Origin: Myxococcales bacterium
GTDB taxonomy: Bacteria; Myxococcota_A; Polyangia; Polyangiales; Houyiibacteriaceae
Direction: 5' to 3'
Assembly (NCBI GenBank): GCA_019637115.1
Contig: JAHBWH010000048.1
Span: forward strand, 1-48,692
DNA length: 48,692 nucleotides
Positions 20,990 to 40,366 of this stretch are shown here, piece by piece. Made by a program: the position numbers and the translations under genes. The first letter of the stretch is position 1. Each line of letters begins with the position of its first letter. The notes under the pieces are model-generated. The model saw nothing but the letters and a program-made list of their open reading frames with translations. It ran no database searches and was not told the DNA's origin.

Positions 20990-21928
20990 TCACAGGTCGT
21001 AGGGGAGGAGGCGAGGCCGAAGCTCGCCATCGCCATGGCGCCCCACATAGTCGGCCCGCACGCCGTTGCACTCGCCACGCAGCGCACAGCCCTCGCACCG
21101 CGGCGTGAAGGTCCCCCCCTCGATGGCCGACTCCTCGAGCCGAAAGCGGTGCCCGCTCGCGTCGTGGACCACGAGCCCGAGGGCAGGGGCGTAGAAGCGC
21201 GCGCGCGGATCGTCCAGCGTGCACGGGGGCGAGTGGAGCGAGACGACGTGCTCGGGTTCTGCCGAGAGGCCGAGCGCCAGGGCCGCCTCCACCCCCGCAG
21301 CGACCTCGGACCAGCGCGGCTCCTCGGCCAGCGCCTCGGCGTCGCTCGGGTCGGGCGCCATCATCCACACGCGGAAGCGATCCACCCCGCGCTCGTGCAG
21401 CGCCCGGACCATCTCGGGGATCTGCGCGCTCGCGGATCGGTAGACGAGCAGATCCGCCTCCGCCCCCAGCCCGTGCGCGCGCACGTGCTCGAGCGCGCGT
21501 TGCAAGAGCTCGAAGGCCCCCTCGGCGCGCGAGAGGCGATCGTGCGTCGCCGCGTCCGGCCCCTTCACCGAGAACGAGACCTCGGTCAGCCCGGCGGCGG
21601 CCAGGCGCGCGACGAGCTCCTCGTACGCCAGCATCGCGCCGTTCGTTTGCAGCCGGATCCGCGAGAAGCCGCGGCGCCGCGCCTCCCGCACGAGCGGCAG
21701 CAGGTCCGCGCGCAGGGTGGGCTCCCCGCCGCCGATCCAGAGCTGCGCGATGCCCTCGCGCCGCGCCTGCGCCATCGCGCGGACCATCGCCCGCGCGTCG
21801 AGCGCGGGCCCCGCGTCGGTCGCGCCGCAGCCGAGGCAGCGGTGGTTGCAGCGATAGTCGGGCGTGAGCTCGAGCCAGCCCGACGTCTCGGACGACGCGC
21901 CGGCCGCGATCGGGAGGCGCCCGCTCAC
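20990..21928 (-). CDS. Radical-SAM enzyme with C-terminal auxiliary-cluster motif
   Basis: 312-residue radical-SAM protein. The 4Fe-4S/SAM motif is C-x3-C-x2-C at residues 27, 31 and 34 (YRCNHRCLGCG). The glycine-rich SAM contact is WIGGGEPTLR, then RIRLQTNGAML. The C-terminus holds PPCTL (about residue 233) and C-x2-C-x5-C at 278, 281 and 287 (RCEGCALRGECNGV), which should bind a second Fe-S cluster, as in SPASM/twitch-type enzymes. The GTG start at 21928 overlaps the stop of the double radical-SAM gene (GTGA), so the two are translationally coupled and probably act together. A peptide or small-molecule substrate is unknown. The same C-terminal signature recurs in four other modules of this locus. 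Confidence 0.85.
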   Translation of the reverse strand: MSGRLPIAAGASSETSGWLELTPDYRCNHRCLGCGATDAGPALDARAMVRAMAQARREGIAQLWIGGGEPTLRADLLPLVREARRRGFSRIRLQTNGAMLAYEELVARLAAAGLTEVSFSVKGPDAATHDRLSRAEGAFELLQRALEHVRAHGLGAEADLLVYRSASAQIPEMVRALHERGVDRFRVWMMAPDPSDAEALAEEPRWSEVAAGVEAALALGLSAEPEHVVSLHSPPCTLDDPRARFYAPALGLVVHDASGHRFRLEESAIEGGTFTPRCEGCALRGECNGVRADYVGRHGDGELRPRLLPYDL

Positions 21929-24258
21929 TCCACAGCGCTCGCGCCCTCATCGACCGCTGGCTTCTTGCGGACGAGGTCCTCCGGCGCGACGAGCCACGGG
22001 GGCTCGGGGACCGAGTCGAGCTCGTAGAAGCCGCCGCAGAAGACCGCGCGCGTGCAGGTGGCGCAGGCGGGCTTCCGCACCCGCCGCTCGGCGAGGTACT
22101 CGGCGAGGTTCACGTCCTCGTTGTTCACGAAGATCATGTGCCGCGCGAGCTTGAGCAGGTCGCCCTCGAGGTGGTCTTCGTAGCCCGGCATGAAACAGAA
22201 GGGCAGGTTGATGACCTGCACCTTCATGCGGCCCTTCCAGCGGTCGATCACGCCGCGCGTGACGGAGGCGGCGTGCTCGACGTCCGGCGCGATCATGCGC
22301 GTCGCGCGGCCGAAGGGCGTGAGGAATTGGACGTTGATCCACCGAAGCCCGAGGTCCCACGCGAGCTGCGTGAGCTGCTCGAGCTGCGCCGTATTGCTCT
22401 TCGTGAGCGTGACGTTCATCCCGAGCTCGACGCCGGGCGGCGCGTGACGGGCGCAGTTGCGGATGCCGGCGGTCGTCTGCTCGAAGGCCTCGGCGACGCC
22501 GACCTGCTGCGCGTGGGAGCGCGCGTCCGCGCCGTGCACCGAGAAGAGGAGCGTCGTCAGCCCGGAGCGGACGAGCTTGCGCGCGTAGTCCTCGTAGTAG
22601 GCCATGCGGCCGTTCGTCGTGACGTTGATGCGCTCGTAGCCGATCGCGCGCGCGTAGCGCACGGTGCCGATGAGGTCGGGGTGGAGCGTCGGCTCGCCGC
22701 CGTCGAAGTCGACCATCGTCACGCCGCGCGCGCGGTAGTCGCGGAGGTGCGCGCGCTGGCTCTCGGTGTGCCCGTGCAGTTGCGTCCGCGTCCCGACCGC
22801 GCAGAAGGTGCAGCGGTTGTTGCAGGCGTAGGTGAGGTTGACGATCAACTTCTCGGGCCCGCTCGACGCCTGCAGGCGCCGGTCGAAGGTCCACTTGAAC
22901 TGTCGCAGCTCGTCGAGCGGGATCTCGCCCGCGCGCTCCTCGTCGCGCGAGGGGCCGTGTTGGAAGGCGGGGCCCCAATCGTCGACGACGGGCAAGCTCC
23001 GGCCGCGGGCGAGGACCGCCGCGGCGAGCGGGGTGCCCGGCAGCGGGGTCGCGTATTGCACCGCCGGGAACGCGCCGAAGCGGTCCCAGAGATCCATCGC
23101 GAAGCCGAGCGTCTCGTTGATCTCCTCGCGGCGCTCCCCTGGCAGCCCGATCATGTAGTGGACGAGCAGCGGCACTTCTGCTGCGTGGGCCTCCTCGGCG
23201 ACGCGCACGATGTCGGCGAGGTCGAGCTGCTTGCGGACCACCTCGGACACGACCCGCTTCGAGCCGCTCTCCGCGCTCACGCTGACGGTCGTGATCCGGC
23301 CCCTCATCGCGTCGAGGTGGTGGCGACGCAGATAGTCCGCGCGCATCCCGTTCGGGATCTCGATCGCCAGGTCGAGCTCTTCCACCGCGCCGAGGAAGGC
23401 GTCGAAGTGCCGCTCGTTGACGTTGACCAGCTCGTCCAGCACGAAGAGCCGCGTCGGCCCGTGGCGTGCGACGAGCGCGCGCATCGCCTCCACGAGGCGC
23501 TCGGCCGACGGGCGGCGCTGCTTCTTCGGCTCACCAGGGACACGCTCGGGGTTCGAGCTGCAGTGGAGGCACGCGAAGGGGCACCCCCGCGACGTGACGA
23601 AGGGCAACGTGCGCCCGTCGATGGGGAACGCCCACCCCGCGCGCCCGAGGTTGGCCACCACGCGCTCGTGGAAGCGGAAGTAGGCGTCGAGGTCGATCCG
23701 GTCCCACGCGGGCAGCGGGAGGTCGTCGAGCCGCGGCGAGGTCCCGCGGTGCACACCAGGCGCGAAGTCGTGGAGGAGCGCCGGGACGGTCACCTCGGCC
23801 TCGTACTTCACGTAGGCGGCGACCTCGGGGTAGGCCTCGAGCACGGCCTCGCCGGGCACCTCGACGTAGTGCTGGCCCGATTGGTGGCAGTCGGCGAGCA
23901 CGACGCGAGGGACCCCTCGGGCGACGAGGCCTTCGAGGAGCGCCGCGAGCACATCGTCTCGATGCGGCGGGCGGTGGAAGGGCGTGTAGGCGACGACGAC
24001 CACCTCGATGAAGCCCTTCGCGCCAGCGGCGGCGTCGTACGCCGAGAGGACGTCGTCCACGCTCGCGCCGAGGTGCGCGCGGCCGTCGTCGCGCCATCGC
24101 AGTGTGCTGCCAGGCAAGGCGAAGGCGTCGACCACGGGGGCGTCGAGCACGGCCGCGAGCTGAAGGGCGCCGAGGTCCGAGAAGTAGGGGTAGTCGATGA
24201 AGTCCCGCGCGACGGTGGTCGGCGGGTGGAGCACCAAGACGCGCGTGCTTCCGGACAT
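21925..24258 (-). CDS. Tandem radical-SAM protein: B12-binding-like domain + radical-SAM + radical-SAM
   Basis: 777-residue fusion. Residues 1-190 look like the cobalamin-binding-like domain of class B radical-SAM enzymes (VLVLHPPTTVARDF at the start; D-x-H-x2-G at residues 123-128, though late for a canonical B12 motif). The first radical-SAM core has C-x3-C-x2-C at 226, 230 and 233 (SRGCPFACLHCSS), with FVLDELVNVNERHFDAF, SVSAESGSKRVV and MIGLPGERREE typical of B12-type family members. The second core begins near residue 470 with C479, C483 and C486 (YACNNRCTFCAVG), VDFDGGEPTLHPD and NVTTNGRM, and ends with LPFCFMPGY and ACATCTRAVFCGG, the auxiliary motif shared across the locus. The ATG at 24258 was chosen; GTG at 24273 is possible. 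Reaction unknown; the second half may process the product of the first. Confidence 0.85.
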   Translation of the reverse strand: MSGSTRVLVLHPPTTVARDFIDYPYFSDLGALQLAAVLDAPVVDAFALPGSTLRWRDDGRAHLGASVDDVLSAYDAAAGAKGFIEVVVVAYTPFHRPPHRDDVLAALLEGLVARGVPRVVLADCHQSGQHYVEVPGEAVLEAYPEVAAYVKYEAEVTVPALLHDFAPGVHRGTSPRLDDLPLPAWDRIDLDAYFRFHERVVANLGRAGWAFPIDGRTLPFVTSRGCPFACLHCSSNPERVPGEPKKQRRPSAERLVEAMRALVARHGPTRLFVLDELVNVNERHFDAFLGAVEELDLAIEIPNGMRADYLRRHHLDAMRGRITTVSVSAESGSKRVVSEVVRKQLDLADIVRVAEEAHAAEVPLLVHYMIGLPGERREEINETLGFAMDLWDRFGAFPAVQYATPLPGTPLAAAVLARGRSLPVVDDWGPAFQHGPSRDEERAGEIPLDELRQFKWTFDRRLQASSGPEKLIVNLTYACNNRCTFCAVGTRTQLHGHTESQRAHLRDYRARGVTMVDFDGGEPTLHPDLIGTVRYARAIGYERINVTTNGRMAYYEDYARKLVRSGLTTLLFSVHGADARSHAQQVGVAEAFEQTTAGIRNCARHAPPGVELGMNVTLTKSNTAQLEQLTQLAWDLGLRWINVQFLTPFGRATRMIAPDVEHAASVTRGVIDRWKGRMKVQVINLPFCFMPGYEDHLEGDLLKLARHMIFVNNEDVNLAEYLAERRVRKPACATCTRAVFCGGFYELDSVPEPPWLVAPEDLVRKKPAVDEGASAVE

Positions 24259-24533
24259 CCGCGCCAGTGTCACCGATCTCGAGCCGGCGCGCGAGCGACG
24301 GCGCCGCGGACATCCGCTACCCTCGAGTCACCGCCGTCGTCACAGGATCCTCCGTCGACGCGCGCCACCCGGCTCTCCGCCGGCGGGGTCTCTCCCGCCG
24401 GCGGCAGCCCAGCTCCCCCGTCGCTGCCCAACCACCGGTCTCCCCGTCGACGCCTGCCCGTCTCCCTGAGATTCCAGCCGCGCTCTCCAGTGGTGCCCCC
24501 CACCCATCTCTCCGGCGCCCCTCACGTCTCCCG
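24259..24533. promoter_or_regulatory. Divergent spacer between radical-SAM genes
   Basis: 275 bases between the tandem radical-SAM gene (minus) and the SPL-like radical-SAM gene (plus). It contains two copies of a CGCCGGCGG word about 20 bases apart around 24380-24405, capable of a short hairpin. The plus-strand frame of the SPL-like gene is open across the whole region, but the encoded Pro/Ser/Arg-rich sequence does not look like protein. Promoters for both genes should lie here; none can be assigned by eye. Confidence 0.35.
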
Positions 24534-25700
24534 ATGGACCTCGACGCCCACCTGCTCGCCCTGCTCGCGCCGACCCGCCCCGGCGAGGCGCTCTTTCCGG
24601 GGGTCGTCCTCGAGCGCGTGAGCTCCGAGGCGGGGTGGCGCGTGACCGTGAGCGTGAGCGCGGGCGTCGGGCGCCGAGAGGTCCACCTCGACGTCGAGCC
24701 CTTCGACGACGCGCGCCCCTTCGCCGCGCGGACCGAGCGCCTCGCGTTCAGCTACCGCCTCGGGCGCGGCGGACCCGAGGTCGACCCCGCGCTCGGTCGC
24801 CGGCTCTGCGCCGCGATCGCCCATCGCGTCGCGCCGCGCGAGGCCGCGGTGCTCGCGCAGATGGCCGCCGAGGCGGCGCGCGCGCGCGAAGAGGACGGGG
24901 CGCGCGTGCGCGACGTGCGCGTGCGCCGCGCGCTCGAGCCGCTTGGCACGCCCGAGGCGCGCTACTTCGGGCTGACCCCCTACGCAGGGTGCGTCATCGG
25001 CTGCCGCTTCTGTTACGCGCAGTCGCGCCTCCGTGCGGTGCGGCGGCTCGAAGGGCTCGACGACGTCCGATGGGGCTCGTACGTGGACGTGCGCGTCGAC
25101 CTGCCCGAGCGCCTCGCCGAGGAGCTCCTCACGACACCCGCCCACGCGATCAAGCTCTGCCCGATCCTGAGCGACCCCTACCAACCGATCGAGGCGCGGC
25201 GAGGGATCACGCGGGCCTGCCTCGAGGTGATCCGCGACGCCCCACAAAGCCCGACGGTCCTCGTGCTGACCCGCTCGTCGCTCGTGCTCCGCGATGTCGC
25301 GCTGCTGGCGTCGATCGCCGGGGCGCACGCCGGGGTCTCGCTGCCGACCTGCGACGACGAGGTGCGGCGTCACTTCGAGCCCCGCGCGACCCCCATCGAG
25401 GAGCGGCTCGACGTGCTGCGGACCCTCCGCGCCCAGGGCGTGCGCACCTTCGCGATCGTTCAACCGATCCTGCCGGGCCCGCTCGACCGCTTGGCGGACC
25501 AGCTCGCCGAGACGGTCGAGAGCGTGCGCATCGACGTGCTCCACGGGGTCGAGGGTGCCGCAGCGGACTTCGCCGACCCGCGGCACGCGCGCGCCGCCGA
25601 TCCCGCGTGGCAGCGCGCGCAGTCGGAGGCCCTCGACGCGGCGCTCCGAGCGCGGGGTGTGAAGGTATGGCGCGGAGAGCTCCCTCCCGCCGAGCCCTGA
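24534..25700 (+). CDS. Radical-SAM protein of the spore-photoproduct-lyase-like (SPL) class
   Basis: 388 residues. The C-terminal two thirds form a radical-SAM domain with C-x3-C-x2-C at about residues 153, 157 and 160 (YAGCVIGCRFCYAQ). The aromatic residue following the third cysteine and the later IKLCPILSDPYQPIEA and GITRACLEVI are characteristic of the SPL/Rv2578c-like family (CYA ... DPYQP). The N-terminal ~130 residues are a distinct domain with beta-type sequence (WRVTVSVSAGVGRREVHLDVEPFDD) that I do not recognise. The family is named for thymine-dimer repair in spores, but many members occur in non-sporing bacteria with unknown substrates. It stands alone on the plus strand inside the radical-SAM locus. 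Confidence 0.75.
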   Translation: MDLDAHLLALLAPTRPGEALFPGVVLERVSSEAGWRVTVSVSAGVGRREVHLDVEPFDDARPFAARTERLAFSYRLGRGGPEVDPALGRRLCAAIAHRVAPREAAVLAQMAAEAARAREEDGARVRDVRVRRALEPLGTPEARYFGLTPYAGCVIGCRFCYAQSRLRAVRRLEGLDDVRWGSYVDVRVDLPERLAEELLTTPAHAIKLCPILSDPYQPIEARRGITRACLEVIRDAPQSPTVLVLTRSSLVLRDVALLASIAGAHAGVSLPTCDDEVRRHFEPRATPIEERLDVLRTLRAQGVRTFAIVQPILPGPLDRLADQLAETVESVRIDVLHGVEGAAADFADPRHARAADPAWQRAQSEALDAALRARGVKVWRGELPPAEP

Positions 25701-25732
25701 GCGGTCACCTCGAACGAACGGCCAAGACCTCG

Positions 25733-25850
25733 GTGTTACGAGGCCAGCGCGTCCGCGCGCCGTCGGCGTTACGCGGCCCGTCCACGCGCCGTCGGTGTTA
25801 CGAGGCCGGCGCGTCCACGCGCCGTCGGTGTCACGGGGCCGGCGCGCCCA
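25733..25850. repeat. 33-bp tandem repeat derived from the 3' end of the next gene
   Basis: About three and a half units of 33 bp (minus-strand reading GCGCCGGCCTCGTAACACCG followed by ACGGCGCGTGGAC). The first unit overlaps the last codons and stop of the glycosyltransferase gene at 25831. The following units each keep a stop codon (TAA) at the same place. Some units carry point differences (GGGCCGCG for GCCGGCCTCG). Confidence 0.85.
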
Positions 25851-27564
25851 TGGGCCATGACACGCGGACGAGCCGCAAGACCTCGACGCCCGTAGACGTG
25901 GCGAAGCGCCCCTCGACGTCGAGGTCGAGCGCGCGCGCGGCGGTCGCCTCCGCGAGCGCGGCCTCGAGCTCGTCGACGAAGGGCTCGTCGATGATCGAGC
26001 GGCGGGTCGGGATGACGGCGCGGAGCGGCAGGTGGCGCGGATCGTCGAGGACCCGCCCCCACCGCTCCGCGAGGCAACGTCGTGTCTCGTCGGGCGCTTC
26101 GTCCCTCGCGCAAGCGTGGAGCACGCTGTGCAGCGAGGTCGGCCGAAGGTCGGAGGCGCCCAGCGCGTCGAGCACGCCGCTCAGGTTGTACGTCGTGGTC
26201 ACGAGGAGGCCCTCGGCCTCCGACCCTTCGAGGTGCGCGGCGAGCGCGCGCTCGGCCTGCGCGTTGATCGAGAGCTCGAGCGTCGCGAGCTGAGGCAGAC
26301 GCGCGACCGACACCCACCCCATCGCGGCGACGGTCAGCGCGACGAGCGCGTGCGCCATCCACGGGCGGCGGCCGAGCCGGGCGCTGGCCGCGTGAAGCGC
26401 CACGCCCGTCGCGAGGCCGAACCACGCGTGGATCGGCGCGTAGTTCGCGGACGGCTGCTGGTCGTAGAGGAGGACCGACACTGCGAGGTAGAACCAGAGG
26501 GACGCGCCGCAGGCCGCCGCGAGCCACGGGCCGCGGCCTCGCCAGACGACCAGCCCGAGCGCCCACGTACAGTAGGCGAGCGCGAGCGCTGCCATGATCG
26601 CGCCTGGCCAGTTCACGCGCGGCTCGGCGTGGCTGACCATGTCCGCGTAGAACCGCAGATCGCTCCAATACACGAGCAGATTCGCGATCTCGCGCGCGAA
26701 CCGCTCGAGCGCGAGGTGGGACATGATGATCTCCAGCCGCATCCCGACCTGCGTCGCGAGGCCGCGCCCTGCATCTCCCACGGAGGCCGCGACCATCACC
26801 AGCAGCGGCGCCATCGCCGCCGAGGCCCCCACCAGCCAGGCGCGCTTCGGGACGCGGGCCCACGGCACCTGGCCGCGAAGGAGGAGCGCGCCCACCGGCG
26901 CGAGCAGCAACACCGTCTTGACGTTCGCGAGCAACGCGAGGCCGACGAGTCCGCCGATCGCGGCGATCCGACGCGACGGCAGTCGGACCGGCTCCGTCGC
27001 GTCTGGGGGCGCGCGCGGGACCAGCAGGGTCGCGGACGCCAGCAAGGTCCACGGCAGGACCTCGTAATAGACCAGCAAGGCGTGGCTACCGGCGAACTGG
27101 GTCGTCACCGCGAGCGTCAGCACGCTCAGATCGCCCGCGCGCTCGTCGAGCCAACGCGCGGCGACCCGGTGCACGGCCCAGAGCGCCCAGATCCCGAAGA
27201 GCAGCCCCAGCCATCGCAGGCGGAACGCGTCGCCGCCGTGGATCGGCCAGAGCAGCGCGAGCGGCCAGTACGGGACGCCCGAAGCGTAGGGCGTGACCAT
27301 GACGGGGAAGGTCCGGCCCGCCACGCACGCGCCGAGCACGGGTCGCGCGTCCGAGCGTACGAAGCGCGGTGGCGCCTCCTCCGCGCACGAGGGCTCCAGG
27401 GCGAGCGAGCCGTCGGGGGCCTCGGTGAGCACCCGATGACCACGGCTCGCGTGGACCGACACCTCTTCGCTCCAGACGGGGCTCCAATGCGCCGCCCAGG
27501 CGCCATGCGCGAGAAACGCGACGCACGCGATCCAGAACGCGGGTCGCTGGAGGGGACGCGCCAT
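25831..27564 (-). CDS. Polytopic membrane glycosyltransferase-like protein (GT39/ArnT type)
   Basis: 577-residue membrane protein with about ten hydrophobic segments between residues 8 and 420 and a soluble C-terminal part (about 430-577). The first periplasmic loop carries acidic residues at 33-34 (SPVWSEEVS) in the place where GT-C enzymes of the PMT/ArnT type hold their catalytic Asp/Glu. These enzymes move sugars from polyprenyl-phosphate carriers. Other supporting text: PYWPLALLWPIHGGDAF and YYEVLPWTLL. It lies 42 bases downstream of the UbiA gene on the same strand, so a shared lipid-linked substrate is conceivable. The ATG at 27564 is chosen; the upstream in-frame start at 27582 adds only six residues. 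Assignment to a precise family is uncertain. Confidence 0.65.
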   Translation of the reverse strand: MARPLQRPAFWIACVAFLAHGAWAAHWSPVWSEEVSVHASRGHRVLTEAPDGSLALEPSCAEEAPPRFVRSDARPVLGACVAGRTFPVMVTPYASGVPYWPLALLWPIHGGDAFRLRWLGLLFGIWALWAVHRVAARWLDERAGDLSVLTLAVTTQFAGSHALLVYYEVLPWTLLASATLLVPRAPPDATEPVRLPSRRIAAIGGLVGLALLANVKTVLLLAPVGALLLRGQVPWARVPKRAWLVGASAAMAPLLVMVAASVGDAGRGLATQVGMRLEIIMSHLALERFAREIANLLVYWSDLRFYADMVSHAEPRVNWPGAIMAALALAYCTWALGLVVWRGRGPWLAAACGASLWFYLAVSVLLYDQQPSANYAPIHAWFGLATGVALHAASARLGRRPWMAHALVALTVAAMGWVSVARLPQLATLELSINAQAERALAAHLEGSEAEGLLVTTTYNLSGVLDALGASDLRPTSLHSVLHACARDEAPDETRRCLAERWGRVLDDPRHLPLRAVIPTRRSIIDEPFVDELEAALAEATAARALDLDVEGRFATSTGVEVLRLVRVSWPMGAPAP

Positions 27565-27606
27565 GGCGCGGGAGGGTATCACCGCGGGTCGCGCGGGCGC
27601 GGCGCT

Positions 27607-28416
27607 TCACATGCGAAACCAGACGAAGAGCGCCGCTCCTCCGACGACGGCCGCCGCGCGATGGAGGAGCCTCGCGCGGCGCATCGCGCTCGCCTCCCCA
27701 CCCCGACGAAAGAGCGCCGCCGGAAAGAGGATCGCGAAAGGCAGGGCGAGCAGCGCGGCGAACGCCAAGCGCGGGTCGGCGTCGCCGGACGCGACGGCGA
27801 TCGAAGGGACGGCCCCCGCGATCGCCGCGAGCCCCGCGACCGGGCGCGGGCCGAGCTGCAAGAACGTCGTGCGCAGCGCGCCCCGCTGGTCTTCGCTCGC
27901 GTCCGCAGCTTCGTGGAGCAGCTGGTTCTGCAGCAAGAGCGCCGCGAAGCAGCACGCGAGCGTCACGAGCCCGGGCGGGAGCGTGGCGTCCGAAAGACCC
28001 ACGAAGAGCAGCGGGGCGAAGCTCGCGACGTTCATCGCGCTGCCGATGACGGGGATCGACTTCAGCCGCGGCCCCGTGGAGTACGCCCAGCCCGAGCCCA
28101 GCGACACGAGGGTCGCTACGAACGCAGGCCAAGGACCGAACGCCCCGACCCCGAGCGCCGAGGCCGCAGACGCCAACGCGGCGCGGCGGTGCGCCTCGAT
28201 CTCGCTCGGTCGAGCGCGCTTGTCGGGGTCGAGGTCCATCGCCCGATCCGCGACGCCGTTCCACAGATAGCCGAACGCGAGCACCGCGAACGCGATCGTC
28301 ACACCTCGCGCGGTGTCCACCCACCACCACGGACGCGAGGGCTCGACCCCCGCCAGCGGCAGCGCGAGGAAGTGGGCCCAATGCCGGAGCCGAAGCTGCG
28401 CGGCCCAGCTGCGCAT
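27607..28416 (-). CDS. UbiA-superfamily prenyltransferase-like membrane protein
   Basis: 269 residues with about eight hydrophobic segments. Both Asp-rich, Mg2+-diphosphate-binding motifs of UbiA enzymes are visible. N-x3-D-x3-D is at residues 53, 57 and 61 (YLWNGVADRAMDLD), followed by PDKRARP, which resembles decaprenylphosphoryl-phosphoribose synthase-type members. D-x3-D is at 172-176 (LLHEAADASEDQRG). The enzyme should transfer a prenyl chain to an aromatic or phosphosugar acceptor in the membrane. The start ATG overlaps the stop of the upstream radical-SAM gene (TGATG), so the two are translationally coupled. The GT39-like gene follows 42 bases downstream. Acceptor unknown. Confidence 0.8.
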   Translation of the reverse strand: MRSWAAQLRLRHWAHFLALPLAGVEPSRPWWWVDTARGVTIAFAVLAFGYLWNGVADRAMDLDPDKRARPSEIEAHRRAALASAASALGVGAFGPWPAFVATLVSLGSGWAYSTGPRLKSIPVIGSAMNVASFAPLLFVGLSDATLPPGLVTLACCFAALLLQNQLLHEAADASEDQRGALRTTFLQLGPRPVAGLAAIAGAVPSIAVASGDADPRLAFAALLALPFAILFPAALFRRGGEASAMRRARLLHRAAAVVGGAALFVWFRM

Positions 28417-29468: not shown

Positions 29469-29709
29469 GCAGTGCGCAAGGCTAACACCATCCCTCGCGG
29501 GCGCGCTGCTCATCGCCGAGGCGCTGCTCATGGCCGAGGCGCCGCTTCATCGCCGAGGCGCCGCTCCGTGGCCGAGGCGCCGCTTCATGGCCGAGGCGCC
29601 GCTTCATGGCCGAGGCGCTCCCTGTGCCGAGGCGGCGCTGGCCATGCGCGAGCGCGCGATGCCCGGTAGCATGCGGCGCATGCGCGCTCGGAGGCGTCCT
29701 CGCCCATGA
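29467..29709 (+). CDS. Doubtful small repeat-rich ORF (80 aa) overlapping the next gene by ATGA
   Basis: An 80-codon frame starts at the ATG that shares the CATG with the divergent radical-SAM start and ends in TGA overlapping the ATG of the gene at 29706. It encodes a hydrophobic stretch (LAGALLIAEALLMAEAPL), two copies of a MAEAPLH-[RG]-RGA word, and a Met/Arg-rich tail. Most of it is made by the 18-bp tandem repeat in this spacer. It could be a leader or precursor peptide for the modifying enzymes around it. It could equally be an accident of repeat DNA, which I think more likely. Confidence 0.2.
   Translation: MQCARLTPSLAGALLIAEALLMAEAPLHRRGAAPWPRRRFMAEAPLHGRGAPCAEAALAMRERAMPGSMRRMRARRRPRP
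29505..29646. repeat. 18-bp tandem repeat array in a divergent spacer
   Basis: Roughly seven imperfect units of GCCGAGGCGCCGCTTCAT fill most of the spacer between the radical-SAM gene (minus) and the unknown gene at 29706 (plus). Units differ by one to three bases (CATCGCC for CATGGCC, CTGCTCAT for CCGCTTCAT). The array must lie in or between the two promoters. Confidence 0.85.
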
Positions 29710-30905: not shown

Positions 30906-30955
30906 GACGCGAGTCCGATCTGCGGTCACCCCGCTCGTTGGGATATGATGCGCCG

Positions 30956-33159: not shown

Positions 33160-33225
33160 GAGGTGGCGGGCTCGGCCACCGTCTCCGCGACTCGCTGCCC
33201 CGGTCGCCTGCTATCCTCCGCGACG

Positions 33226-34065
33226 ATGTCGTCGCTCGAGGCTCCCCCGAACTACTTGGACGTGCTCGTCGTCCCCGCGAGCGATCGGCACGCGGCGCAG
33301 GGCGCGTACGGCGCGATCCTCGACGGGGGGCTCGGCGCGCTCGTCCTCCGCGGGGCGTTCGAGCCCGCCGCGCTCGCGGCCGCGTCGGCCCGGCTCTCGG
33401 CGCTCGAGGTGCCCGAGCACTTGCGGCACGCGCCCGTCGTGAGCCGCCTCGACGAGCCGGCCATGGGGGTGGTCGGACGATGCATGCGCCTGTCGGGCCT
33501 CGAGGACTATCCGAAGAGCGCGGCGGAGACGCGCGCGCTCTTCGGGCAGATCTTCGATGACCCGGAGGGCCTCGAGGGCGGAGTCGCCGCGTTCTTGCGG
33601 GAGCTCTCTGGTGGCGAGGTGCGCTCCCCCCCCGGGGCGTTCGCTCCCGCGCTGATCTCGCGCCTCCGCGGCGGGGCCGAGATCCCCTATCACTTCGACA
33701 ATTTCGTCTTGCTCGAAGAGACCGCGTTCCGGCTCGTCGCGCCGCTCATCGAATCTCGGACGCTCCTGAACGTGCAGGTCCCGCTCCAACGGCCCGACGC
33801 GGGCGGTCACCTCGAGCTCGCGTCGTACCATTGGGACGACTTCGTCCAAGCTGGCGCGCCGCGGCCCGACGCGCATGTCGACACCCCAGCGCGCGACGCG
33901 ACCCACCATCGGCTCGTCGAGCTCGAGGTCGGCGACATGCTGCTCTTCGACGCGGGTCGCATCTGCCATCGGGTCACTCCGGTCGTGGGCGCGCGCGAAC
34001 GCCTGACGTACGTCGTGCACACCGCCCCGCTCCGAGACGGCTCGGGCGTGGCGTACTTCACCTGA
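33226..34065 (+). CDS. Fe(II)/2-oxoglutarate-dependent oxygenase
   Basis: 279 residues. The iron-binding facial triad is visible as H-x-D at residues 156 and 158 (IPYHFDNFV) and a distal His at 248 (GRICHRVTPVVGARERLTYV). The Arg about ten residues later is suited to binding 2-oxoglutarate. Between them is a long insert containing VQVPLQRPDAGGHLELASY and a second H-containing loop. Proteins of this fold hydroxylate, desaturate or demethylate C-H bonds using O2. The ATG at 33226 is 66 bases after the radical-SAM gene and in the same direction. It is the last gene before a perfect 30-bp inverted repeat. Confidence 0.8.
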   Translation: MSSLEAPPNYLDVLVVPASDRHAAQGAYGAILDGGLGALVLRGAFEPAALAAASARLSALEVPEHLRHAPVVSRLDEPAMGVVGRCMRLSGLEDYPKSAAETRALFGQIFDDPEGLEGGVAAFLRELSGGEVRSPPGAFAPALISRLRGGAEIPYHFDNFVLLEETAFRLVAPLIESRTLLNVQVPLQRPDAGGHLELASYHWDDFVQAGAPRPDAHVDTPARDATHHRLVELEVGDMLLFDAGRICHRVTPVVGARERLTYVVHTAPLRDGSGVAYFT

Positions 34066-34088
34066 GCTCCGACTCTCGGTTCAGACCA

Positions 34089-34252
34089 AGTACCTCGCCA
34101 CAGGAGTCTTGACCGGTTCAGCGTGGAGGATCGGCCTCGAGGTCGGTTCCGCGTCGACGAAGGACAGGCCGAAGCCTATTCGAGGAGGTGCGGGGCCGAC
34201 ATCGAGGTCGAGGACCGCGACCAACCGGTCAAGACTCCTGTGGCGAGGTACT
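34089..34252. repeat. 164-bp element with perfect 30-bp terminal inverted repeats
   Basis: The arms are 34089-34118 and 34223-34252. They are exactly complementary over 30 bases (AGTACCTCGCCACAGGAGTC and ten more), around a 104-bp centre rich in GAGGTCGG and CGACCTCG words. The right arm covers the stop codon of the minus-strand methyltransferase gene. The position between convergent genes would suit a bidirectional terminator, but there are no T-runs and the loop is very long. A MITE-like insertion is the alternative. Confidence 0.8.
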
Positions 34253-35297
34253 AGCTCCTCGAGGTTTCGATCAGCATGAAGTGGATCTCGGCGACGCGCT
34301 CGACGCGCTCGACCCGGAACCCTCGGCGCCCCAGCTCGTCGACGTACCAGCTCGCCGGCCGGTAGTGGCTCAGGAACGGGAGGTTCGCGACCTCGGCGTC
34401 CGGGAGCGAGCGCTGCTTCAGGTCGTAGCGCTCGCCCTCGAAGATCACGAAGGGCGCACCGGGCGGCAGCGCGCGCGCGACCGCGTCGAGGATGCGACGC
34501 GCGCCCTCCTCGTTCCAGTCGTGCAGGAGCGACTTCGCGATCGCGCCGTCGAAGCCGCCGGGGAGCGCGCCGCGTGCGAGATCGACCGCGTCGAAGCGCA
34601 CGGCGTCGCGCAAACGCGCGAGGTCGCCGCCCTCTCCACCGCGCCGCTCGAGGTGCTCGCGTCCGAGCGCACAGACGACCGGCGTGTCGACCACCGTGAC
34701 CGTCGCCTCGGGGTGACGGCGCGCGATCTGAATCGCCTGTTCGCCGTTGTTTCCACCCAGGTCGAGCCAGCGGCGCGCCCTCGAGAAGTCGTAGGCGTCC
34801 AACAGGAACGGGACGTGGTAGCGGGTCAGGGTCGACATGTAGCGGACCCAGGGGCGACTCGCGTCGAGCAGCGCCGCGTCGAAATTCGGTCGCGCGTCGA
34901 AGTGGAAGAAGCCGATCAACGCGCCCAGGAAGCGGTGGGGCTCACGGACGGCGCTCGCGTAGTGGCTGGTCATCGCGCGGGTGACGTGGCGCTGGTAGTC
35001 GAGCTGCGCCTCGAGGAGGTCGCGGTAGGGCAGGACCTCGCGGAAGCGCGTCGCGAGCGTCAGCTCGCCGTCGCCGTGCGGCGCCAGGACCTCGTGCTGC
35101 GCCAACAGGTCCATGAGGATCTCGAGCTCTCGCGCGTCGACGGCCAGCTCTCGTGCCAGCACGTCGGGGGAGGCGCCAGCGCGGCCTTCGAGCCTGTCCA
35201 CCAGGCCGAGCTCCAGCGCGGCGCCGACCACGCTGGGGCGGATGAGCCCGTCCAAGTAGAACGCGACGCGCTCCCAAGGGATCGCAGGATTCGTCAC
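34251..35297 (-). CDS. SAM-dependent O-methyltransferase (Methyltransf_2 type)
   Basis: 348 residues. The N-terminal ~100 residues form the winged-helix dimerisation domain usual for COMT-like enzymes (VVGAALELGLVDRLEGRAG, then VLARELAVDARELEILMDLL). The C-terminal Rossmann domain has motif I WLDLGGNNGEQAIQIA, the acidic SAM-ribose contact in VTVVDTPVV, and LLHDWNEEGARRILDAVA with the His-Asp-Trp sequence characteristic of small-molecule O-methyltransferases (catalytic His region). These act on phenols, enols or carboxylates. A GTG start at 35297 is used because homologues begin just before the dimerisation helix. Its stop lies inside the right arm of the 30-bp inverted repeat. Confidence 0.85.
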   Translation of the reverse strand: MTNPAIPWERVAFYLDGLIRPSVVGAALELGLVDRLEGRAGASPDVLARELAVDARELEILMDLLAQHEVLAPHGDGELTLATRFREVLPYRDLLEAQLDYQRHVTRAMTSHYASAVREPHRFLGALIGFFHFDARPNFDAALLDASRPWVRYMSTLTRYHVPFLLDAYDFSRARRWLDLGGNNGEQAIQIARRHPEATVTVVDTPVVCALGREHLERRGGEGGDLARLRDAVRFDAVDLARGALPGGFDGAIAKSLLHDWNEEGARRILDAVARALPPGAPFVIFEGERYDLKQRSLPDAEVANLPFLSHYRPASWYVDELGRRGFRVERVERVAEIHFMLIETSRS

Positions 35298-35303
35298 GTG
35301 CCG

Positions 35304-35576
35304 ATGATGGCATGGGTCGCGCGAGCCGACACGCTCCCCGACGGCACCGACCTTCGCGAGGTCGACCTCTCGGGCGCCACCTTCGAGCACGTGTACGTGA
35401 GCCACGACCTACGCGGCGCCAACCTCGCCAAGACCGTGTGGCGGTCGATGCTCGCATGGGTCGCGGCGTGTCGGCTCGCGCGTGCTCGCCGTCGGCCGTC
35501 GGCCGAAGGGGCGCGACCCGCCGAGCGCGGCCCGGTCGCGCGTGCTCGCCGTTGGCCGTCGGCCGAAGGGGTGTGA
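35304..35576 (+). CDS. Short pentapeptide-repeat-like ORF, probably truncated
   Basis: 90 residues. Residues ~10-45 fit the pentapeptide consensus (centre Leu/Phe, preceding small residue): LREVD-LSGAT-FEHVY-VSHDL-RGANL-AKTVW. Only about six repeats are present where functional proteins usually have dozens. The rest is Arg/Ala-rich sequence made by a 60-bp direct repeat. It starts 6 bases from the divergent methyltransferase start. It is either a short remnant of a longer gene destroyed by repeat expansion or a small protein of unknown role. Confidence 0.4.
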   Translation: MMAWVARADTLPDGTDLREVDLSGATFEHVYVSHDLRGANLAKTVWRSMLAWVAACRLARARRRPSAEGARPAERGPVARARRWPSAEGV

Positions 35577-35594
35577 CCCGCCGAGCGCGGCCCG
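35475..35594. repeat. 60-bp direct repeat, two units
   Basis: Two adjacent 60-bp copies, starting TCGCGCGTGCTCGCCG and ending in GAGCGCGGCCCG, differ at only a few positions (GTCGGCC/GTTGGCC, GCGCGAC/GTGTGAC). They span the end of the pentapeptide-like ORF and the spacer before the minus-strand JmjC gene. The second copy supplies the stop codon of the ORF. Confidence 0.9.
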
Positions 35595-35613
35595 CCCGCG
35601 CGACTCGCCGACC

Positions 35614-36387
35614 TCAGATCGCCAACCCGCGCGCGCGCTTGTACGCGTCCGACGCCAGCAGCACGGGGTAGGTCCAGGGATCGCACCACCAGAAGTTCAA
35701 CGAGATCGCTGCCTCGAGCGAGCGCGCGTGGTGCCACCACCGAGGCGGGATGAAGAGCGCGTCGCCAGGGCCGAGCGTCGCCAGCACGCCACGAGCCCGC
35801 GTCAGCCGGGGCCATCGGGCGAAGTCGGGCGCCTCGGGATCGACCCGGCTGAGGTGAGGCGTCGACGAGATCCACGGGTAGGCGTACAGCGCGCGCGCAT
35901 CCGATGGGGGAAAGAGGACGAAGCGCTTCGTGCCGTGCAGCATCACCACGAGGTTGTGGGGCAAGTCGAAGTGCAGGCGCGTCACCGTCCCCCGCCCGCT
36001 GAACCAGAAGTTGCTCCGCAGGCCGAGGCCGTCGACGCAGGGGCTCGGGACGCCCAGGTCGGCGCGCATCGACGGCGGGAGGGCGGTCGTGCTCACGCGG
36101 AGGTAGTGGCGCGGCTTGTCGGTGCCTTCCGTGTGGGCGACGTAGTCGCGCAGCCGCATGGGCTCGAGCACGAAGCCGGTGCGCGGATCGAGCAGGACGT
36201 GTCCGTCGCGCATCGCGTACGTCTGCACGACCAGGTCACCGTGTCGATCCCGCAGGAGCTCCGGCGACCAGCGTCGCGCGGGCCAGCTGCTCGCCACCTC
36301 GCGCACGATGACGGGGTGCGTGGGGGGCTCGCGTCCCCAGGGCGTCGTCAGGGTCGGCACGGCTGGGAGGAGATCGAACGCCCACAT
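35614..36387 (-). CDS. JmjC/cupin_8-type Fe(II)/2OG oxygenase, copy 1
   Basis: 257 residues with the cupin-like JmjC fold. The iron ligands are H139-x-D141 (VTRLHFDLPHNLVVML) and H219 in PPRWWHHARSL. The strand following H-x-D (GTKRFVLFPPSDA) and the LGPGDALFIPPRWWH motif are hallmarks of bacterial cupin_8/FIH-like hydroxylases. Such enzymes hydroxylate amino-acid side chains or small molecules. The divergent gene at 36470 encodes a protein of identical length whose ligands fall at the same residue numbers, so the two are paralogues. It has a start with methionine at 36387; the intergenic space to the divergent copy is 82 bases. A role in the same pathway as the radical-SAM enzymes is inferred from position. 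Confidence 0.85.
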   Translation of the reverse strand: MWAFDLLPAVPTLTTPWGREPPTHPVIVREVASSWPARRWSPELLRDRHGDLVVQTYAMRDGHVLLDPRTGFVLEPMRLRDYVAHTEGTDKPRHYLRVSTTALPPSMRADLGVPSPCVDGLGLRSNFWFSGRGTVTRLHFDLPHNLVVMLHGTKRFVLFPPSDARALYAYPWISSTPHLSRVDPEAPDFARWPRLTRARGVLATLGPGDALFIPPRWWHHARSLEAAISLNFWWCDPWTYPVLLASDAYKRARGLAI

Positions 36388-36469
36388 CGGGAAGGCAGCG
36401 TATCAGGTTCCGTGCAGGGCCCGTCCCGCTCGGTCGGCACGACGCCGGCGGACGAGTGTATCGTGGGGC
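36388..36469. promoter_or_regulatory. 82-bp divergent promoter region between the JmjC twins
   Basis: Both JmjC genes must be transcribed from this short space or from within each other's first codons. It includes AAGGCAGCGTATCAGGTTCC near the minus-strand start and GTGTATCGTGGGGC near the plus-strand start. The two GTATC words are in the same orientation 60 bases apart. No certain promoter or operator was found. Confidence 0.3.
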
Positions 36470-37243
36470 GTGCGCCTCACACCCTTACGTGCTCGCGCGT
36501 GGACCTTGCGAAGCGTGATCTCGGCCATCACCCTCGAGCACCCGGTCTGGTCTCCTCGGATGGCGTCCGGTTGGCTTGCGATGACGTGGACGGACGAGCG
36601 GCTCGCCGAGCGCGGCAGCCACGACCTCGTGACTTGTTATCGCACCGACGCGGGGCACCTCACGCTCTCTGAGCGGACGAACCTGTCCGTCGAGCGCGTC
36701 CCGCTCCGCGAAGCGCTCGACCACGTGCGGGCGGGAGCGGCGGCGACGCTGCGGGTGCGAGCCCGGATCGACCAGGAGCTGCCCGCCTTGGTCAGCGACC
36801 TCGGCTGGTTGGCACCCTTGGTCCGCGCCGGTCTCCTCGAGGCCAGCCTCTGGGTCAGCCCGGGACCGACCGTCTCACGATTGCACTTCGATCAGCCGCA
36901 CAACGTCCTCGTCGGCCTCCGCGGGAGCAAACGCGTCGTGCTCTTCTCTCCTTGGCAGACTCCATGGCTCTACCCGCGGTCACCGCTCTCGGCGGCGGCG
37001 CAGTTCAGCCGTCTCGACCTCTCGCGGCCTCTCCCGGCCGACCGCTCGTGGGCGCGCCGCGCGCGCGGCGTCGAGTGCACCCTGGCGCCCGGCGACGCGC
37101 TCTTCATCCCGGGCGGGTGGTGGCATTATGTCGAGCACGCGGAGCCGTGCGCGTCGCTCAGCCTCCGATGGTGGCCGCCGACGCGCGCCCCGGTGCTCGC
37201 GGCGGCGAGCCTCTACAAGCGCGCGCGGCGCCACTCTCGCTGA
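36470..37243 (+). CDS. JmjC/cupin_8-type Fe(II)/2OG oxygenase, copy 2
   Basis: 257 residues from the GTG at 36470. Ligands are H139-x-D141 (VSRLHFDQPHNVLVGL) and H219 (PGGWWHYVEHAEP), at exactly the same residue numbers as in the divergent twin. Shared blocks include GSKRVVLFSPWQTPWLYPRS and LAPGDALFIPGGWWH. The N-terminal half is more divergent (DHVRAGAAATLRVRARIDQE), so substrate preference probably differs. The pair likely arose by inverted duplication and then specialised. The 3' end, with its stop codon, is tandemly repeated downstream. A later start (internal Met, residue 31) is possible but would break the equal length. Confidence 0.85.
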   Translation: MRLTPLRARAWTLRSVISAITLEHPVWSPRMASGWLAMTWTDERLAERGSHDLVTCYRTDAGHLTLSERTNLSVERVPLREALDHVRAGAAATLRVRARIDQELPALVSDLGWLAPLVRAGLLEASLWVSPGPTVSRLHFDQPHNVLVGLRGSKRVVLFSPWQTPWLYPRSPLSAAAQFSRLDLSRPLPADRSWARRARGVECTLAPGDALFIPGGWWHYVEHAEPCASLSLRWWPPTRAPVLAAASLYKRARRHSR

Positions 37244-37309
37244 CTCGCGCGATGGCGCCACTCTCGTCGACTCGCGCGAGTGCGCGCCCCACTCGTTGGC
37301 TCGCGCGAG
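37227..37309. repeat. ~27-bp tandem repeat of the JmjC copy-2 3' end
   Basis: Three units of about 27-28 bp (GGCGCCACTCTCGCTGACTC and seven more bases). The first contains the final His-Ser-Arg codons and TGA of the oxygenase gene; the two following copies are outside the gene and diverge increasingly. The remaining 74 bases to the next gene hold nothing recognisable. Confidence 0.85.
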
Positions 37310-37383
37310 CACATGCCGTTCCCGAGCAGCCTCGATCGCGCTCTCGCCTGCGGGGCCGCGGAGGAGCGCTCCACGGGTCGCGC

Positions 37384-39195
37384 TCAGCCCGCGGCGAGCA
37401 CCGGGCGCAGCTCGGCGTCACCGTGGAGCTCCAGGTAACCCTGCCGAAGCCCATAGCAGCGCGACTCGAGCGCGCAGCCCTTGCACGCCTCGGTCTTGAC
37501 GAACTCGCCGCCATCCTCGGCGACCTCGGAGAGCTGGAAGTAGGCCGCGAGGGGTCTCGGGACGAGGCAGAGCGGGATGCCACACATCGACTCGAACCCT
37601 CCGAGGGGGAGCCCTCGCGACTCCGCGAGGGCGACCGCCTGCGCGAGCAGCGGCAGGACCTCGCCGTAGCTCGGCACGAGGGAGCGGTCGCGCGGGACGA
37701 CGTCGGTCGACGGCGCGACGAAGGAGAGGGTTGCGTAGACGCCAGGCCACCGATCCGCGAGCAGCGCGACCCAGGCGGGCAGCTCTTGGGCGTTGGTCTG
37801 CGAGATGACGAAGTTCAGCTGCACCACGACGCCGAGCGCCACGAGGTGGTCGACGCCGCGGAGCGTCTTCGCGAAGGTCCCCGGGGCGTGGGTGACCGCG
37901 TCCGAGACCTCCGCGCTCGCCCCGTGAAGGGAGACGAACGCCTCGTCGAGCCCTGCCTCGACGAGGGCCTCGGCGAGGGCGCGGTCGGCGAGCCGCACCG
38001 CGTTGGTCTGCATCAGCACCGGCCGCGAGGAGAGCGACTTGGCGAGGCGCACGTACTCGACGATGCGTGGGTGCAGCGTCGGCTCACCCCCCGAGAGCGT
38101 GACCTTGTGGCCTGCGAGGGCGGCCTCCCGGATGGCGGCCTCGACGACGTCGTCGGCCGCCTTCGGGAGGTGCGTCGAGACGAAGCAGAAGCCGCAGGCC
38201 TGATTGCATTGGAAGAGCACACGGATGATCGCCTCGACCACGTCGCCCGACGCCGGGTCGCGATAGCGATTGAGGGTGACGAGCTCGCGCGCGATCTGCT
38301 CTTCGACCGACGAGATGATCGACAAGCGACGCCGCGTTCGGTCGGTGCGCGGCGGCGTCATGCGCGGGGGACCGTCGCGCTCGAGGACCACGCGAGGGAT
38401 CCCGGAGCAACGATCGCGCACGAGGCACGGCTCACAGGCTTCGACGAAAGCGTGGTCGGGCGGGGGAGCGACGTTCGGCGTCATCGAGTAGAGGTGCGCG
38501 ACGCGGCCCGCGTCCTCGTGCACGCACGGCGGCGGGCCGCTCCCTGGGGCGAGCCTCGACACGAGGCCGACGCGGCGCGCGGCATCCTCGACCGCGCGCA
38601 CGACCTCGCCCGCGCGGTCGTAGCCGACGAGCTCTGATGGATCGGGGGAGCTGACGGGCAAGCGCAGGACGAGCGCATGGACGCGACCTCCGAACCGCTC
38701 GCGCAAGAACGCCGGGAGGGCCGGGAGGTCGTCGAGCGTCGAGCGGACGATCGCCGCTTGGACGTCGACGCGCAGGGCCGCGTCCAGGCAAGCGTCGATC
38801 CCTCGGAGGGTGGCGAGGAAGCCGCCGGGGTCGTGCGTGATGCGGTCGACGACCTCCGCGCGGGCGGCCGAGAGGTTCACGAGCACCTCGTCGAGGCCCG
38901 CCGCGGCGAGGGCGCGGGCTCCGGCGTCGTCGACGAGGGTCCCGTTCGTCTCCAGCGCCACCCGCTCGGCGCCCAGTCGGCGCGCGGCCGCGACCAAGGC
39001 GGCGAGGTCTCGGCGCAGGGTCGGCTCCCCGCCGCTCAGCACGATCCGCTTCCCTCCCGAGCGGATGGCCGCCCCGATGCGGGCCTCCACCGCCGCGCGC
39101 GAGATCCAGCGCAGGTCGTCCGTCGCGAGGCGATCCGTGCAGTACGTGCAGCGCTGATTGCACCGCAGGTTCGTCTGGATCAGCTCGCTCCGCAC
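37384..39195 (-). CDS. Tandem double radical-SAM enzyme, each half with its own auxiliary motif
   Basis: 603 residues made of two complete radical-SAM modules. Module 1: C12, C16 and C19 (LRCNQRCTYCTD), RIVLSGGEPTLRRDL, RVALETNGTLV, closing with PPPCVH and ACEPCLVRDRCSGI near residue 285. Module 2: C330, C334 and C337 (FQCNQACGFCFVS), KVTLSGGEPTLHPRI, VLMQTNAVRLAD, VSLHGASAEVSDAV, closing with CGIPLCLVP and ACKGCALESRCYGLRQGY. Each half is the size and shape of the single-module enzyme at 20990-21928. Two different reactions, or two rounds of one, on a single substrate are likely. GTG start at 39195. It is on its own minus-strand transcript, with the hydrolase gene 169 bases upstream. Confidence 0.88.
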   Translation of the reverse strand: MRSELIQTNLRCNQRCTYCTDRLATDDLRWISRAAVEARIGAAIRSGGKRIVLSGGEPTLRRDLAALVAAARRLGAERVALETNGTLVDDAGARALAAAGLDEVLVNLSAARAEVVDRITHDPGGFLATLRGIDACLDAALRVDVQAAIVRSTLDDLPALPAFLRERFGGRVHALVLRLPVSSPDPSELVGYDRAGEVVRAVEDAARRVGLVSRLAPGSGPPPCVHEDAGRVAHLYSMTPNVAPPPDHAFVEACEPCLVRDRCSGIPRVVLERDGPPRMTPPRTDRTRRRLSIISSVEEQIARELVTLNRYRDPASGDVVEAIIRVLFQCNQACGFCFVSTHLPKAADDVVEAAIREAALAGHKVTLSGGEPTLHPRIVEYVRLAKSLSSRPVLMQTNAVRLADRALAEALVEAGLDEAFVSLHGASAEVSDAVTHAPGTFAKTLRGVDHLVALGVVVQLNFVISQTNAQELPAWVALLADRWPGVYATLSFVAPSTDVVPRDRSLVPSYGEVLPLLAQAVALAESRGLPLGGFESMCGIPLCLVPRPLAAYFQLSEVAEDGGEFVKTEACKGCALESRCYGLRQGYLELHGDAELRPVLAAG

Positions 39196-39364
39196 GAGTG
39201 CACTCTACCGGTGCCTCGCACCGCCGGACACCTCGTCGGGGAGATGGCGTCAGCTTCCTCCGGAGATCGCCAGCCCCCCGCTTCGAACGATTCCACTTCG
39301 AAGCGCTCGCTTTGCTCGCTGCGCGCCGCCCAGTAGAGCGGCTTGCGAAGCGGCCGAGCTTCTT
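39196..39364. other. Spacer with no recognisable gene
   Basis: 169 bases between the hydrolase stop and the double radical-SAM start. It contains an imperfect internal duplication of TTCGAACGATTCCACTTCGAAGC-like words around 39285-39310 (TTCGAA twice, 20 bases apart). No coding frame in it resembles a protein. It should contain the promoter of the double radical-SAM gene. Confidence 0.4.
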
Positions 39365-40366
39365 TCAGCCCGTCCGCTGGTGGACGAAGCGCGCGATCTT
39401 CGCCATGCCCGACTGGGCGCGGGGGCTGAGATCCGCGAAGAGCGGGTAGACGTGGATCTCGTCGGGCTCGACGTGCAGCTCGACCTCGACGCCCGCGTCC
39501 CGCGCACGCGCCGCAAAGCGCCGCGCGTCGTCGACGATCGCCTCGACCTCGCCCGCGAGCACGAGCAGCGGCGGCAGCCCGCGGAGCTCGGCGTGGACGG
39601 GAGAGACCCGAGGGTCGACGAGCGGGAGGGCGCCAGCGTAGGCGTTGCGGAAGTAGGCGCTCTTCTCGGGGAAGATGTAGTCGTAGCGTGTGGTGCGGGC
39701 CGAGGACTCGCCGCTGAGGTCCGTCCACGGTGAGATCAGCACCCCGCCTGCGGGCATCGGCAAGCCCGCGTCGCGGAGGGCGACGAGCGTCGCGGCGGTC
39801 AGCCCGCCACCGGCCGAGTCTCCAGCGATGACGAGCTGCTGGGGTGAGCGCTCGGCGAGGAGGGCCTCGTAGGCGCGCAGCGCGTCCTCGATCGCTGCGG
39901 GGCACGGGTGCTCGGGCGCCAGGCGGTAGTCGACCCCCACGACCTCGACGTGCCCGACGTGGGCGAGCCCCGCGAACATGCCGAGGTGCGAGCGCGTCGA
40001 GCCGAGCGCGTAGGCGCCTCCGTGCAGGTAGAGCACGGTCCCGCGCGTCGGTAGCCGCTCGCCCGTCACGCGATGCTTCGGCAACACCCGCACCCCGGCG
40101 ACCCCGCCGAGCACGAGCTCCTCGCGGACGACGCGATCACGCCGGACCTCGCGCTCGCCGATTCGGTCCATCGCCTTGCGGAGCCGCGTCACCTTCGGGA
40201 TGGCCTCGGGTGAGGCGCTCACGCCGAACTGGATGCGCAGGAGCTCGACTAGGGTCTCGTAGCGGAACGACCAGCTCGGCCGCCGGGGACCACGGCGGAG
40301 CCGCCGGCTCGCGGTGCGGAAGGTCGCTCGACCGACCTGCTCGAGGGTGCGTCGATAGGCTCGCAT
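39365..40366 (-). CDS. Alpha/beta hydrolase of the hormone-sensitive-lipase (HSL) family
   Basis: 333 residues. The oxyanion-hole motif is YLHGGAYALGS. The nucleophile is Ser184 in IAGDSAGGGL. The acidic residue is expected in the LAGEVEAIVDD region, and the catalytic His is 305 in DEIHVYPLF. The family hydrolyses short-chain esters, lactones or amides in the cytosol. The N-terminal ~70 residues are basic (RTASRRLRRGPRRPSW) and may associate with membrane or cap the active site. It sits on the edge of the radical-SAM/oxygenase locus, and could remove a protecting or leader group, but it may equally be an unrelated esterase. The ATG at 40366 was chosen; the frame is open further upstream without protein-like sequence. 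Confidence 0.88.
   Translation of the reverse strand: MRAYRRTLEQVGRATFRTASRRLRRGPRRPSWSFRYETLVELLRIQFGVSASPEAIPKVTRLRKAMDRIGEREVRRDRVVREELVLGGVAGVRVLPKHRVTGERLPTRGTVLYLHGGAYALGSTRSHLGMFAGLAHVGHVEVVGVDYRLAPEHPCPAAIEDALRAYEALLAERSPQQLVIAGDSAGGGLTAATLVALRDAGLPMPAGGVLISPWTDLSGESSARTTRYDYIFPEKSAYFRNAYAGALPLVDPRVSPVHAELRGLPPLLVLAGEVEAIVDDARRFAARARDAGVEVELHVEPDEIHVYPLFADLSPRAQSGMAKIARFVHQRTG

Follow-up and report, generated by a model that had tools for sequence, protein, structure and literature searches.

Radical-SAM-rich gene block in a Polyangiales genome as a probable satellite tailoring locus of an HxsA4-type RiPP pathway

The His-Xaa-Ser (Hxs) RiPP system is known from genome analysis only. 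Maturation by HxsB and HxsC is termed putative in the sole paper that we found discussing it (PMC9062424), and no Hxs product could be found in the literature searched. Other described systems that bear on the present locus are the aKG-HExxH peptide beta-hydroxylases, which are fused to or paired with radical SAM (rSAM) proteins, the ABBA prenyltransferases and the carrier-independent WelO5 halogenases. The window analysed here, a stretch of 48,692 nucleotides, is contig C378 of the 8.88-Mb draft genome of a Myxococcales bacterium. Its block 20990-39195, which was taken as the tailoring locus, contains fourteen genes, six of which encode rSAM proteins that together have eight PF04055 domains. 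This block probably serves the genome's own HxsA4-type RiPP pathway as a satellite tailoring locus, a reading based on gene families and homology, on the Hxs core encoded in the genome, on co-occurrence and linkage in islands of relatives, and on one predicted ABBA fold. The features of the block are as follows (genes are named below by their first coordinate).

20990-21928, minus strand: rSAM protein of 312 aa, MoaA/HxsC4-like, with a C-terminal Cys cluster (PF04055, 80.7 bits); GTGA overlap with 21925
21925-24273, minus strand: tandem rSAM protein of 782 aa with two PF04055 domains
24534-25700, plus strand: SplB/PA0069-like rSAM protein (PF04055, 37 bits)
25831-27582, minus strand: membrane protein, weakly GT-C/PMT_2-like (19.1 bits, below the cut-off of 26.1)
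27607-28416, minus strand: UbiA-family membrane prenyltransferase (PF01040, 47.9 bits against 34.2); TGATG overlap with 28416
28416-29531, minus strand: rSAM protein with a partial SPASM match, PTO1314/HpnH-like (PF04055, 91 bits)
29706-30905, plus strand: C5/N2-family partner protein with ABBA-like motifs only (hhalign to C5, E 3e-7, probability 93)
30956-31840, plus strand: protein with a predicted ABBA fold (AlphaFold pLDDT 94.3, pTM 0.91); TGATG overlap with 31840
31840-33159, plus strand: HxsC4-like rSAM protein downstream of 30956 (PF04055, 73.7 bits)
33226-34065, plus strand: WelO5-family Fe(II)/2OG oxygenase of the HxD type (PF22814, 87 bits; HFD motif)
34084-34118 and 34223-34257: inverted pair of 35-nt repeats, 104 nt apart and 94% complementary, between the oxygenase gene 33226 and the methyltransferase gene 34251
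34251-35390, minus strand: O-methyltransferase, Methyltransf_2 (PF00891, 54.8 bits)
35614-36387, minus strand: Cupin_8/JmjC oxygenase A (PF13621, 143 bits against 27.4; HFD...WWH intact)
36470-37243, plus strand: Cupin_8/JmjC oxygenase B (PF13621, 115 bits against 27.4; HFD...WWH intact)
37384-39195, minus strand: tandem rSAM protein of 603 aa (two PF04055 domains, 150 bits)

The rSAM content reported by the initial annotation, six proteins and eight domains with two tandem enzymes (21925 and 37384), was recovered with all eight CxxxCxxC motifs intact. Eight of the 47 PF04055 domains of the whole genome lie within window positions 21464-39168, while about 0.1 would be expected per 18 kb (Poisson P(≥8) ~1.5e-13). 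The UbiA protein, the O-methyltransferase and the two JmjC proteins that it named all score above their Pfam cut-offs, its third Fe(II)/2OG oxygenase turned out to be the WelO5-family, HxD-bearing protein 33226, and the translational coupling was seen again as GTGA at 21925-21928 and as TGATG at the rSAM 28416/UbiA and 30956/rSAM 31840 junctions. Three of its assignments held only in part: 25831 keeps a weak GT-C likeness but misses the PMT_2 cut-off on which a GT39-like label would depend; the gene at 39365-40366 does encode a hydrolase but flanks the gene set and lacks the link to Hxs; and of the two proteins called unknown, neither of which has a Pfam family, 30956 shows an ABBA prenyltransferase fold. 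Several repeats were also observed. The inverted pair at 34084-34257 could be a terminator or a mobile-element remnant, and a 19-nt tandem repeat array (29492-29625) covers the 5' end and upstream region of rSAM 28416, the start codon of which may lie further in. Low-complexity GC-rich repeats at 40700-40900 and 47120-47170 would be read as Gly-Pro or Ser-Asp runs, depending on the frame.

None of the window rSAM proteins reached the cut-off of any Hxs model, the best HxsC4 scores being 72-126 bits against 500, and judged by sequence they appear to be relatives of HxsC4 rather than HxsC4 itself. In 21925, the N-terminal half resembles B12-type rSAM proteins and the C-terminal half is HxsC4-like. 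A quick rSAM domain tree, in which many forks are open and descent from HxsC4 is unsettled, pairs the window domains with members of rSAM islands in the related genomes G043 and G181, where 20990 also has orthologs of 61-63% identity.

The core of an Hxs system is encoded elsewhere in the same genome. HxsA4 was found at C377:42524-42778 on the plus strand (114 bits against a cut-off of 55), with the leader LPSF..., followed by QHCS, 13 His-Gly-Ser repeats and a C-terminal Trp, which agrees with the leader LPSF.R... and the core QHCS(HGS)nW that HxsA4 proteins have in common. HxsC4 (633 bits against 500) adjoins it, and an aKG-HExxH hydroxylase (81 bits against 40) lies between the rSAM genes of this Hxs locus. 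Contig C210 carries HxsB (535 bits against 370) together with an HxsD-like gene (66 bits against 41), and a second HxsD, at 49.5 bits against 50, stays just below the cut-off. HxsA4, HxsB/D and the window genes are thus distributed over three separate contigs (C377, C210 and C378). The initial annotation had reported an undescribed locus in which no clear RiPP precursor was visible. The latter point stands, because neither HxS repeats in a six-frame reading nor an HxsA4-like leader were detected in the window, and the precursor could not have been seen there since none is encoded in it. The former needs qualification, as the locus attaches to a known, uncharacterised RiPP system whose core is encoded elsewhere in this genome, outside contig C378. 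Two side observations concern this core: an HxsA4 with a very long array of at least 40 HGS units occurs in another genome (G063:C13:23058), and a conserved small protein without a family match (C24 family, some members of which have a Tat-like signal) lies beside the Hxs rSAM genes (C377:39338-39841) and has relatives in G043, G045 and Paraliomyxa miuraensis.

The link between the window and Hxs was drawn from 183 genomes of the order, among which HxsA4 scored above the cut-off in 60, an HxsD-like protein was present in 61, and either was present in 64. HxsA4 or HxsD accompanied 21925 (up to 82% identity) in 52 of 53 genomes, 37384 in 35 of 35, 24534 (counted only above 240 bits) in 26 of 26, 30956 in 21 of the 22 genomes that carry it, and 28416 in nine of nine. 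Genus-level p values against HxsD, which do not include a full phylogenetic model, were 6e-15 for 21925, 4e-10 for 37384 and 5e-6 for 30956. Linkage within 60 kb of HxsA4 was found for 21925 in 13 genomes, for 37384 in seven, for 24534 in six and for 30956 in four; a first neighbourhood survey had located 37384 homologs in 15 of 57 relatives. The flanking hydrolase 39365, used as a negative control, occurred in ten genomes, four of them with Hxs, and is 72% identical in an HxsD-negative genome of the same genus. This genome (G001) is without HxsD and without all five tested families (21925, 37384, 24534, 30956 and 28416), and the hydrolase is the only gene shared between its contig and the window, so that no clean empty site emerged. 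Distances of hundreds of kb separate the families from HxsA4 in two near-complete genomes (G154 and G078), and the parts of the system in the window's genome may be similarly far apart.

In the relatives, the homologs are surrounded by rSAM-rich islands, and in several genomes (G043, G045, Minicystis rosea G135 and G181) a single island of 40-55 kb includes HxsA4; in G043, G135 and G181 it spans 45-55 kb and comprises all the parts. A local profile counted 18 rSAM domains in the stretch at 402-482 kb of G043:C1, which carries homologs of 21925 (80%), 37384 (67%), 20990 (63%), 31840 and 30956, while G045:C4:6-45 kb contains about 15 rSAM domains and homologs of 21925, 37384, 20990, 24534, 28416 (weak) and the JmjC proteins. 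Further recurrent island genes encode PhyH, Rieske and carbamoyltransferase proteins. A sub-cassette of the GT-C, UbiA, rSAM 28416 and JmjC genes recurs in whole or in part in seven genomes (G116, G100, G122, G008, G157, G015 and G039); GT-C 25831 homologs adjoin those of UbiA and rSAM 28416 in G116, G100 and G008, JmjC 35614 homologs of 35-47% identity lie in islands of G100, G122, G116 and G045, and one 30-kb contig (G116:C99) carries two HxsA4 genes together with GT-C, rSAM 28416, UbiA and JmjC homologs. Hence at least five families (21925, 37384, 24534, 30956/31840 and 28416/UbiA) co-occur in Polyangia, often in one island, as the initial annotation had proposed to look for; gene order is conserved within sub-cassettes but not across the whole locus. 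A chance assembly of unrelated genes in an accessory region, with no pathway in common, is very improbable. The lack of an overall conserved order, the use of both strands and an O-methyltransferase unique in the order would fit such an assembly, whereas the rSAM density (P ~1e-13), the recurrence of sub-cassettes with translational overlaps, and the renewed meeting of the same families in islands of distant genera, with their co-occurrence and linkage, speak against it.

The protein 30956 was modelled by AlphaFold from a 40-sequence alignment. When the model was compared with known structures, ABBA prenyltransferases came out on top (VIA-align Z up to 12.8; Foldseek E 5e-6) and made up all the top rows, the match spanning residues 14-294 with Z 12.8 over 238 residues. 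They include the peptide-acting PagF, KgpF and LimF and the histidine-acting FunA. The strand residues K85, E97, Y99, Y101, K225 and Y232 are conserved and would be compatible with prenyl diphosphate binding and transfer. No relevant Pfam match was found among 40 members of the family and none in NCBIfam, and a PDB sequence search with the family profile returned spurious coiled-coil and other chance matches only; a search with the C5 profile gave nothing useful. From the model, 30956 is probably an aromatic prenyltransferase of an uncatalogued sequence family. The preceding protein, 29706, is a divergent C5 member whose own AlphaFold model (pLDDT 50) is too poor for fold assignment. C5 proteins precede 30956 homologs in many myxobacterial loci, the N2 family, which hhalign relates to C5 (E 1e-5, probability 82), does so in other phyla, and nearly every locus has a homolog of rSAM 31840 next to that of 30956. 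In two loci of Methylobacterium aquaticum and Bosea (L137:5857-8223 and L139:7611-9947), the gene immediately before the 30956 homolog encodes a fusion of a tryptophan halogenase with an N2 domain.

This 29706-30956-31840 cassette bears on both the preferred reading and its leading rival. In Paraliomyxa miuraensis, a 118-aa HGS-repeat protein identified as HxsA4 (118 bits against 55) lies one gene from the 30956 homolog, and the gene preceding HxsA4 is HxsD-like (61 bits against 41). The cassette is also found, together with an O-methyltransferase, in Proteobacteria, Planctomycetes and Rokubacteria, often near giant LEPR-xLL proteins, which are candidate substrates there. At nine loci (L132, L135, L137, L139, L144, L154, L155, L158 and L161), the cassette lies beside giant exported proteins that carry a LEPR-xLL-type motif at the N-terminus, and such loci outside Myxococcota often carry SapC and transporter genes. 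The leading rival deserves some weight, being unlikely rather than negligible: the substrate would be some other peptide or exported protein, unrecognised so far and not encoded in the locus, and the locus would travel with Hxs because both are part of general rSAM modification islands with common partners, regulation or export. It draws on the occurrence of the cassette outside Myxococcota without HxsA4 and adjoining LEPR-xLL proteins, on the distance of the families from HxsA4 in G154 and G078, and on islands with up to 18 rSAM domains, many for a single HGS peptide. Set against this, 21925 and 37384 are almost never found without Hxs, several complete islands include HxsA4, and no alternative precursor turned up within the window.

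The remaining enzymes can be assigned with varying precision. The oxygenase 33226 matches WelO5 chains in the PDB (E 8e-13), and the HxG of WelO5 halogenases is absent from its iron site, where HFD stands instead; bearing HxD, it is expected to hydroxylate rather than halogenate. Other WelO5-family proteins of the islands carry either the HxG halogenase motif (G181:C1:7408893-7410200 and 7414369-7415169; G109:C272:20591-21409) or HxE at this position. The Cupin_8 proteins 35614 and 36470 are the only two in the genome. The O-methyltransferase 34251 is the only one of its kind in the order, and its relatives (29-37% identity) occur in the 30956 cassette at 13 loci outside Myxococcota. No NCBIfam model matches UbiA 27607; a decaprenyl-phosphoryl-sugar synthase was considered for it on account of a KRxRP motif and rejected, the motif not being common to the eight-member family alignment. 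An O-methyltransferase of the small-molecule Methyltransf_2 type, a WelO5-family oxygenase, a UbiA protein and an ABBA fold that often acts on free aromatics could also belong to a pathway for a small molecule or lipid, such as a prenylated and methylated aromatic, unrelated to a peptide. We regard this as improbable, given the tight association with a RiPP precursor, the resemblance of the rSAM proteins to peptide maturases and the lack of a scaffold-forming enzyme in the window. Among the substrates first suggested, the unrecognised peptide is accordingly favoured by co-occurrence and linkage with Hxs, while the small aromatic and the lipid-linked molecule are left without direct support.

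For a satellite locus of the HxsA4 pathway, the following route could be proposed, in which HxsA4 as the substrate of the window enzymes and every reaction are what we infer. The HxsD-like proteins would mediate recognition of HxsA4, which the core rSAM enzymes HxsB and HxsC4 would modify first, before the window enzymes act on it in trans. The window rSAM proteins may introduce further radical changes into His, Gly or Ser of the HGS repeats, the JmjC and WelO5-like oxygenases may hydroxylate, and 30956 may prenylate an aromatic side chain, either His or the invariant C-terminal Trp. The methyltransferase 34251 might cap a hydroxyl, and the UbiA/GT-C/rSAM/JmjC cassette might handle a lipid-linked group at the membrane. 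Counted against HxsA4 are the lack of a precursor in the window, the spread of the genes over three contigs, the separation in G154 and G078, the 30956 cassette without HxsA4 outside Myxococcota, the window rSAM scores below every Hxs model cut-off, and the few chemically different sites that a simple HGS repeat offers to so many enzymes. As a more speculative and rather doubtful extension, Polyangiales could hyper-modify HGS-repeat peptides by at least ten rSAM enzymes, two kinds of prenyltransferase, oxygenases and methyl transfer, with the 30956 cassette as a general prenylation module that acts in other phyla on LEPR-xLL proteins. In the literature searched, the coverage of which is partial and makes this weak evidence, there was no description of the rSAM islands, of a satellite locus or of an ABBA-fold family coupled to rSAM. 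On these data, rSAM-rich islands appear to centre on Hxs in about one-third of the order's sampled genomes, and the system now has a precursor that can be tested and a defined set of partner genes. A second outcome is an uncatalogued ABBA-fold sequence family coupled to rSAM across several phyla. If the proposed reading is true, the locus would yield new peptide chemistry from a compact set of genes, and the long-open function of Hxs would become directly testable.

Compared with known systems, 30956 has its fold in common with the ABBA prenyltransferases (DMATS, AmbP1 and CloQ; PagF, KgpF and LimF) at an identity of only ~10%, and differs in that it is always paired with an rSAM protein and usually also with a C5/N2 protein, its activity being predicted from the model. 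The WelO5 halogenases and 33226 belong to one family and are distinguished by HxG and HxD. The aKG-HExxH hydroxylases are represented in the C377 Hxs locus and in related islands but not in the window, and the HGS-repeat precursor is of another kind than theirs. As for Hxs itself (HxsA/B/C/D, with the NCBIfam variant HxsA4/HxsC4), its core is present in the genome, and the window families almost always occur together with it and share its islands in relatives; in contrast to the Hxs definition, the window holds no core genes and adds tandem rSAM, prenyltransferase-fold and oxygenase genes on a separate contig.
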